A program made the translations under genes and the position numbers. The notes under the pieces were generated by a model. That model ran no database searches and was not told the DNA's origin. It saw only the letters and a program-made list of their open reading frames with translations. Shown one piece after another: positions 53,006 to 54,416 of a DNA stretch of 64,000 nt. The stretch's first letter is position 1. Each line of letters begins with the position of its first letter. This stretch comes from Aquisphaera giovannonii (GTDB lineage: Bacteria; Planctomycetota; Planctomycetia; Isosphaerales; Isosphaeraceae): positions 9,734,001 to 9,798,000 of the forward strand of contig NZ_CP042997.1 of assembly GCF_008087625.1 (NCBI RefSeq), given 5' to 3'.

Positions 53006-53241
53006 AGCACCCGGCGAACGTCGAATCGGCAACCGCACGCCGACCCGGTGGGGGGCCGAAGAGCCTTCTCCAGCGCTTCGCAACCCGGCCCGAGTTCAAC
53101 CCGGCATCCCCGCCAATCTGGCAGGAACCATGGGCTCAGCGGCGTCGATGGCTGCCTGTTTGACGGAGAACGAAACACGCCCACCCATCGCCCATATCGC
53201 TACCTGTTCGCGCCCCTGGACTTACATTGATTGAACGCGAT

Positions 53242-53257
53242 TGGCACGCCCGCTGCT
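53242..53257 (+). promoter_or_regulatory. Sigma-54 (RpoN)-type -24/-12 promoter for the Hsp20 operon
   Basis: TTGGCACGCCCGCTGCTT matches TGGCACG-N4-YTGCW. The invariant GG (53243-53244) and GC (53255-53256) are separated by exactly 10 bases, the strict spacing of sigma-54 promoters. Transcription would start near 53268, about 110 bases before the Hsp20 ATG. The inverted repeat TGTTT/AAACA at 53157-53177 is placed where an enhancer-binding activator could sit. Function is inferred from the match. Confidence 0.65.
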
Positions 53258-53380
53258 TCATGGTTCCTTTCGGAGAAGCGACCCGTAGCGGCGATGCACG
53301 GGCTGCCGTCAGGGGCTTCTCCCTCGCATGGTCAATTTCCTTTCAAGCGTTGCCCGTGAACCATTGAGAGGGGGTTCTCT

Positions 53381-53818
53381 ATGCTTCCCATGCTGTCCAG
53401 GAATGCGATGCTGGCTCCGAGCGCAAGCGGCCCGATCCATCGCCTGGATTCGTTCTTCGATCGAGTCTTCGGCGAGGATGGCTCGTTCGGCCTGGCCTGG
53501 GACAACGTGCCGGTCTCGATGTGGGAGGACGACGATCGCATCCACGTCGAGGCCGACCTGCCCGGCATGACCGAGAATGATGTGGAGATCACCGTCCACA
53601 ACGGGATGCTCTCCATCCGCGGCGAGCGCAAGCCCGAGGGCGGCCGGAACTACTTCTACAACGGCCGATCCTACGGGCGGTTCGAGCGGGTGATCACGCT
53701 CCCGGAGGCCGTGAATGCCGACGACGTGCAGGGCACGCTCAAGGACGGCGTCCTGCGATTGACGCTGCCCAAGCGCCCCGAGGCGAGGCCGAAGAAGATC
53801 ACGCTCAGGACGACCTGA
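53381..53818 (+). CDS. Small heat-shock protein (Hsp20/alpha-crystallin)
   Basis: A 145-aa chaperone that holds unfolding proteins in soluble oligomers. The alpha-crystallin domain runs from about residue 43 (NVPVSMWEDDDRIHVEADLP) through ENDVEITVHNGMLSIRGERK and FERVITLPEAVNADDVQGTL to GVLRLTLPKRPEARPKKI; the conserved 'GVLxLxLPK' is near the end. The N-terminal arm carries LDSFFDRVFGED. AGGGGG about eight bases upstream fits the ATG at 53381. First gene of a pair behind a sigma-54-type promoter. Confidence 0.95.
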   Translation: MLPMLSRNAMLAPSASGPIHRLDSFFDRVFGEDGSFGLAWDNVPVSMWEDDDRIHVEADLPGMTENDVEITVHNGMLSIRGERKPEGGRNYFYNGRSYGRFERVITLPEAVNADDVQGTLKDGVLRLTLPKRPEARPKKITLRTT

Positions 53819-53936: not shown

Positions 53937-54416
53937 ATGGCCATCGAACGCTGGGATCCCTTCCGCGACGCGGTCAGCCTCCGCGACGCGGTGAACACGC
54001 TCTTCCAGGAGAGCTTCGTCCGGCCGGGGAGCGTCCCGAACACCAACGGCACGGCCTCGCTGCCGCTGGACATCTGCGAGTCGGAGAACGAGTTCGTGAT
54101 CAGGGCCTCGCTCCCCGGAGTGAAGCCGGATGACGTGCAGATCACCCTCCACGGCGACACCCTGACCATCCGCGCCGAGGCGAAGGCCGAGGAGGAGAAG
54201 AAGGGCGAGCACTGGCACCTCCGCGAGCGACGATTCGGCTCGTTCCAGCGGTCCGTGACCCTCGGCACGCCCGTCAACACCGAGAAGGCCGACGCCCAGT
54301 ACGAGCACGGCGTCCTGACGCTCCGGCTGCCGAAGGCCGAGGAGGCCAAGCCCCGCCAGATCCGGATCGGCGGCTCCAGGCAGGCCAGGGTCGGCCAGGA
54401 ATCGGGCTCGAAGTGA
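53937..54416 (+). CDS. Small heat-shock protein (Hsp20/alpha-crystallin), second copy
   Basis: A 159-aa Hsp20: MAIERWDPFRDAVSLRDAVN is the common N-terminal arm, then the crystallin domain (LPLDICESENEFVIRASLPG, VQITLHGDTLTIRAEAKAEE, GSFQRSVTLGTPVNTEKADA, GVLTLRLPKAEEAKPRQI). GGAGGAG at 53922-53928 favours the ATG at 53937 over the GTG at 53928. It differs enough from its neighbour to form a two-component IbpA/IbpB-like pair. They are 118 bp apart, with a strong hairpin terminator after this gene. Confidence 0.95.
   Translation: MAIERWDPFRDAVSLRDAVNTLFQESFVRPGSVPNTNGTASLPLDICESENEFVIRASLPGVKPDDVQITLHGDTLTIRAEAKAEEEKKGEHWHLRERRFGSFQRSVTLGTPVNTEKADAQYEHGVLTLRLPKAEEAKPRQIRIGGSRQARVGQESGSK

Follow-up and report, generated by a model that had tools for sequence, protein, structure and literature searches.

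A predicted sigma-54 promoter, a degraded probable enhancer and a predicted structured RNA leader precede an Hsp20 operon and point to a probable sigma-54-dependent chaperone regulon in Planctomycetia

The stretch of DNA analysed here (64 kb; G000:C1:9734001-9798000, hereafter the window) lies within a genome of 10.5 Mb and contains two consecutive genes for small heat-shock proteins of the Hsp20 type. Among named relatives, those closest to the first of these proteins are encoded on contigs labelled Isosphaeraceae or Planctomycetales. The two genes and the elements that precede them are, in their order along the DNA:

53111..53123, + strand: upstream palindrome copy UAS1, CGCCAATCTGGCA, two mismatches to TGCCAWWWTGGCA, 131 bp before the promoter
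53153..53165, + strand: strongly degraded palindrome copy UAS2, TGCCTGTTTGACG, 89 bp before the promoter, placed by spacing
53242..53256, + strand: predicted sigma-54 -24/-12 promoter, TGGCACGCCCGCTGC, assigned by its motif and by its recurrence upstream of Hsp20 genes (21 of 30 loci)
53268, + strand: predicted transcription start, inferred as the C of the -12 element plus 12 bases; the conserved RNA runs from +5
53272..53322, + strand: RNA hairpin I (GGAGAAGC...GCUUCUCC), predicted by folding, apical loop CACGGGC at 53297-53303
53326..53384, + strand: RNA hairpin II, containing the Shine-Dalgarno sequence GAGAGGGGG (53366-53374) and the start codon
53381..53818, + strand: first Hsp20 gene, 145 aa (PF00011, E 5.9e-24)
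53937..54416, + strand: second Hsp20 gene, about 159 aa (PF00011, E 1e-23), ATG start taken from the sequence

The consensus of sigma-54-dependent -24/-12 promoters is TGGCAYGN4TTGC, and the element TGGCACGCCCGCTGC departs from it by a single mismatch, its GG (53243-53244) and GC (53255-53256) standing in the GG-N10-GC arrangement. A verdict from this motif alone was rejected, since sequences with up to two mismatches to TGGCACN5TTGC occur at chance level in the window (36 matches in 64 kb versus a mean of 41.6 after shuffling), five of the 36 having one mismatch. The promoter becomes convincing because it is conserved across species. Thirty Hsp20 loci were chosen by protein similarity only, and not by the motif, and the 450 bp upstream of each were scanned against a null of 100 dinucleotide shuffles. 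A sigma-54 site with at most one mismatch was present at 20 of these loci (shuffles: mean 0.22, maximum 2) and one with at most two mismatches at 21 (shuffles: mean 1.47, maximum 5), while the 450 bp upstream of the other nine contained no such site. When the palindrome TGCCAWWWTGGCA (at most one mismatch) was sought 30 to 230 bp above the sigma-54 site, both elements were found together at 14 of the 30 loci and never in the 100 shuffles of each; seven of the 21 loci with a sigma-54 site were without the palindrome. The initial annotation of this DNA had placed a sigma-54 promoter in front of the two-gene Hsp20 operon, and had named beforehand a lack of conservation of GG-N10-GC in relatives as one of the findings that would refute this proposal; the recurrence of the site at 21 unselected loci supports the proposal. 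The rpoN gene, which was to be looked for as well, is present in the genome (PF00309 match at C1:4861468, E 1.8e-12).

The palindrome has the general form TGCCA-WWW-TGGCA; situated roughly 130 and 90 bp above the promoter, it is the likely enhancer of the operon, that is, its upstream activating sequence (UAS). The spacing of UAS1 is matched at L206, L207, L208, L210, L214 and L216 (-128 to -131), and seven relatives have a second copy at -88 to -92, all of these being Hsp20 loci that bear the RNA described below. Neither of the two copies in the window would be called without these relatives; they are degraded but in register, and UAS2, with four mismatches, is not callable by sequence alone. 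Given this degradation (two and four mismatches, respectively), the operon may respond weakly or differently. A possible enhancer role had previously been assigned to the inverted repeat TGTTT/AAACA, the arms of which are indeed present (53157-53161 and 53173-53177). Arms of 5 bp mean little, the repeat is not conserved in relatives, and its TGTTT arm merely overlaps the degraded UAS2, so that this assignment was wrong; the conserved element is TGCCA-WWW-TGGCA.

Across 59 genomes, the exact UAS occurs at 95 sites, versus 26 for the reversed pattern, and 38 of the genomes contain it. With six duplicate loci (L150-L155) excluded, 64 distinct exact-UAS loci were evaluated. A chaperone gene lies 20 to 600 bp downstream at 31 of them (12 Hsp20, nine dnaK, seven groES/groEL, two htpG and one clpB; the families were checked with Pfam on eight examples), and none was found at the other 33; this count is restricted to exact-UAS loci and omits several sites beside known Hsp20 genes, so that it leans against Hsp20. 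At most of the chaperone loci, a sigma-54 site with at most two mismatches is situated between the palindrome and the gene. The 56 UAS/sigma-54 pairs that were counted, versus none with the reversed UAS, are left out of the argument, since the UAS was the reason for choosing many of these loci. Both elements precede only five of the 30 best-matching groES loci; some groES genes follow groEL, as is also the case in the window's own genome.

This genome has 13 UAS sites with at most one mismatch, versus three for the control. Five chaperone operons, namely those of dnaK, groES and groEL-groES and two with Hsp20 genes, have six of the 13 in their promoter regions; dnaK has a perfect sigma-54 site along with its UAS. 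Two of the six, C1:2333691 and C1:3735483 at the Hsp20 loci, overlap the -24 element and are therefore not independent enhancer copies. A UAS-like palindrome overlapped by a perfect sigma-54 -24/-12 site was also observed at L047 (G000:C1:9659894). HrcA was found in none of the 59 genomes by a search whose control was positive in seven of 14 named genomes.

The ibpB gene of E. coli is reported to have a sigma-54 promoter in addition to its sigma-32 promoter. The initial annotation drew a comparison with this gene that holds as far as a small-heat-shock gene with a sigma-54 promoter is concerned; it undersold the case, because the same pair of elements also precedes dnaK, groE, htpG and clpB. 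In E. coli, sigma-54 adds to sigma-32 at ibpB, whereas here the elements are also found at the main chaperone genes, and no HrcA is found. We take the predicted promoter at 53242-53256 to be genuine and to belong, in all likelihood, to a sigma-54 regulon of chaperone genes that spans the class.

The genome encodes 15 strong enhancer-binding proteins (EBPs; PF00158). One of these, encoded at G000:C1:7058215, is our candidate activator; it consists of a receiver domain (PF00072), an AAA+ domain (PF00158) and a Fis-type HTH (PF02954), and its gene is positioned directly behind that of a soluble HisKA/HATPase histidine kinase. Of the 59 genomes, 56 contain a strong match to this protein, including every one of the 43 good ones. 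When the 17 PF00158 loci of the window's own genome were compared by BLAST with the 64 UAS loci, a single place was matched, in G048, and this place is the ortholog of C1:7058215. Furthermore, UAS copies lie just upstream of the activator gene in all three genomes of family f4 (G039, G044, G048) and in G053. In G044, G048 and G053, TATACT or TATAAT follows the UAS within about 10 bases, a layout that suggests an autorepressed promoter of the NtrC type; NtrC represses its own synthesis, and the sites at the candidate's own promoter in some families suggest likewise. In the window's family, where the activator gene again stands behind the kinase gene, no UAS with at most one mismatch was detected in the nearby sequence examined, and none with at most two mismatches in the 300 bp before the activator gene. 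The open reading frame ahead of the kinase-activator pair (own-genome L055:254-4092) may encode a polynucleotide phosphorylase, which it resembles.

The recognition helix of the activator, ERTLYRK, is almost constant across the class. Orthologs with altered recognition helices are present at L185, L203 and L202 (G005, G051 and G054, respectively), in genomes that lack an exact UAS. The correlation between helix and UAS is too weak to build upon, because G053 is an exception and many genomes with the canonical helix are also without an exact UAS; the deviant helices are only a lead towards a possible change in specificity. A different arrangement was observed at L186 (G041:C183:54000-63500, minus strand), where three Hsp20 genes, an open reading frame, a histidine kinase gene and an EBP gene follow each other in tandem, with a perfect sigma-54 site ahead of the first Hsp20 gene. 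The EBP encoded there is 46% identical to the candidate activator, and the locus appears to be a self-contained Hsp20 two-component cassette, possibly with a different enhancer; the position of an EBP and its kinase inside an Hsp20 operon indicates that such proteins can be wired to Hsp20. In a congener (L036, G001:C340), another Hsp20 gene follows about 460 bp after the end of a gene for an EBP close to that of own-genome L064 (61%). C1:7058215 is probably the activator of the chaperone regulon.

Missing from the initial annotation is a structured RNA leader, which takes up the 5' untranslated region of the operon. This leader (53272-53384) consists of two conserved RNA hairpins, their loops complementary to each other and the Shine-Dalgarno sequence buried: the apical loop of hairpin II (GCCCGUG, 53352-53358) is complementary to that of hairpin I, and a CCUUUC segment of hairpin II is paired with the Shine-Dalgarno sequence. 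The predicted fold has a z-score of -2.92, and none of 200 shuffled sequences was equally stable. An RNA model (R1) built from seven sequences scores 93.6 bits at the window leader and yielded 16 matches in 14 of the 297 genomes of the class that were searched, 15 of which end at an Hsp20 start codon. Seven divergent matches before Hsp20 genes come from families f2, f3, f8 and f9, and a match at a contig end (L220) likewise precedes an Hsp20 gene. The sole miss (L221, E 0.0037) was discarded as false, as no Hsp20 gene follows it. A comparison of the leader with Rfam gave no match at the gathering score.

The stems of hairpin I differ between lineages yet re-form, and ACGGG is kept in or near the apical loop. 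Over the whole RNA structure, 92.4% of the cells are paired, versus 41 to 58% after sliding, and the two loops, CACGGGC and GCCCGUG, are complementary in 95.2% of the cells. Changes on both sides of a pair are few (six cells), and the loop-loop pairing is nearly invariant, so that covariation cannot prove it. Hairpin I of L207 (G031) contains a tandem duplication of the loop I segment GACGCACGGGCC. A sigma-54 site is present at 12 of the 15 RNA leaders; the 5' end of the RNA coincides with +0 to +5 of the predicted transcription start in 10 of these 12, and lies at +17 and -3 in the remaining two. No sigma-54 site was found at the other three leaders, L209 and L211 (G038 and G056) and L217 (G278), which indicates that the RNA can be combined with another promoter. 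The promoter, the UAS, their spacing, the target genes and the conservation of the RNA structure are all evident at the level of sequence.

The regulon could be real and yet be served by an activator other than the one we favor, either one of the approximately 14 other EBPs or several paralogous EBPs that share the work. The choice is not narrowed by any small genome, and identification by elimination in EBP-poor genomes had to be given up, as each of the eight has 13 to 19 matches to PF00158 when weak ones are counted; the cassette of G041 with its different EBP and kinase also fits this reading. Against it stand the fact that the ortholog of the candidate is the only EBP found among the 64 distinct UAS loci, the conserved UAS pairs at the candidate's own promoter in four genomes, and the finding that none of the other EBPs of the window's own genome has a UAS with at most one mismatch nearby; we regard another activator as rather unlikely. 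Another objection is that the -24/-12 element of the window is a relic or a chance match, with sigma-70 or an ECF sigma factor transcribing the operon and sigma-54 acting in relatives only. The motif frequency in the window, the decay of the UAS copies and the persistence of the RNA at L209, L211 and L217 would all agree with this objection. The spacing between the UAS positions and the predicted promoter is, however, correct, and the conserved RNA of the window starts at +5 of the predicted start just as it does in relatives with perfect sites, so that we judge a relic or chance origin to be quite improbable.

As for the leader, ROSE and fourU elements are RNA thermometers in the 5' untranslated regions of small-heat-shock genes, and the leader might likewise be a strict thermometer that heat melts to free the Shine-Dalgarno sequence. 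Like these elements, it precedes small-heat-shock genes, and its structure pairs the Shine-Dalgarno sequence in most of the sequences. It differs from them in its two hairpins, in its complementary conserved loops and in having no Rfam match, and it is too stable in silico for simple melting: the predicted pairing probability of the Shine-Dalgarno sequence in the window is 1.00 at 37 °C and still 0.98 at 60 °C, and in most leaders the predicted stability hardly drops at temperatures below 60 °C, with the Shine-Dalgarno sequence paired up to that temperature. In L206 and L207, the full-length predicted fold leaves it free at every temperature. A plain thermometer is therefore not established, and the conservation of the loops points to contact between them or with a ligand more than to plain melting; we consider the strict thermometer less likely than not.

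We suggest that sigma-54 governs a heat-shock, or proteotoxic-stress, regulon to which the Hsp20 operon belongs. An activator acting as a dimer or oligomer, most likely the NtrC-type response regulator G000:C1:7058215, would bind the pair of TGCCA-N3-TGGCA sites that lie some 130 and 90 bp above the promoter, loop to the sigma-54 holoenzyme at 53242-53256 and open it through ATP hydrolysis. The same activator would act class-wide on Hsp20, dnaK, groE, htpG and clpB and would replace HrcA. The mRNA would begin with the two-hairpin RNA, whose hairpin II would hide the ribosome-binding site, so that this Hsp20 subfamily would be gated a second time, at translation. The parts of this scheme that we infer are the binding and activation steps, the nature of the stress signal, the protein that serves as activator and the trigger that opens the RNA. 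The candidate pair resembles NtrC/NtrB in its receiver, its sigma-54 interaction domain, its Fis-type HTH and the adjoining HisKA/HATPase kinase; unlike NtrC, it would have chaperone genes as targets and TGCCA-N3-TGGCA as its predicted site. We hold this explanation as a whole, the sigma-54 chaperone regulon with C1:7058215 as activator and the RNA as translational gate, to be likely. On the broader proposition we are evenly divided, namely that one class-wide kinase/NtrC-type pair replaces the usual heat-shock circuitry in Planctomycetia, reads protein stress and activates all main chaperones via TGCCA-N3-TGGCA, with a new kissing-loop RNA family, which begins at +1 to +5 of the sigma-54 transcript, gating translation of one Hsp20 subfamily.

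Heat induces ClpB, GroEL, DnaJ, GrpE, Hsp20 and DnaK in R. baltica, an organism in which rpoH is present and not heat-regulated, and rpoN is likewise not regulated (PMC2754498). A connection between sigma-54 and chaperones is already in print: a study from 2025 (PMC12316311) reports, for Planctomycetota and Bacteroidota, an enrichment of predicted sigma-54 promoters in the GroEL, IbpA/Hsp20, GroES, GrpE, DnaJ and DnaK groups. The main text of that study makes no mention of an upstream activating sequence, UAS, palindrome or bEBP, and its passages on the chaperone genes name neither an activator for them nor an RNA element. Neither the enhancer nor the activator nor the RNA was reported in the literature searched; the work of Studholme and Dixon (2004) on the EBPs of Pirellula may bear on the matter. 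A literature search on RNA thermometers in planctomycetes likewise found nothing.

The textbook picture of the bacterial heat-shock response is built on sigma-32 or on HrcA/CIRCE. The present analysis supplies a concrete activator, a site and an RNA as testable candidates, and the RNA leader would represent a new cis-regulatory family in which the transcription start and the 5' end of the RNA predict each other. A sigma-54 regulon would explain the heat induction of the R. baltica chaperones at unchanged rpoH and rpoN levels (PMC2754498). If our interpretation is true, a fast emergency response would run on the strictly activator-gated, ATP-driven and enhancer-dependent sigma-54 polymerase, and would do so throughout a class of bacteria without HrcA.
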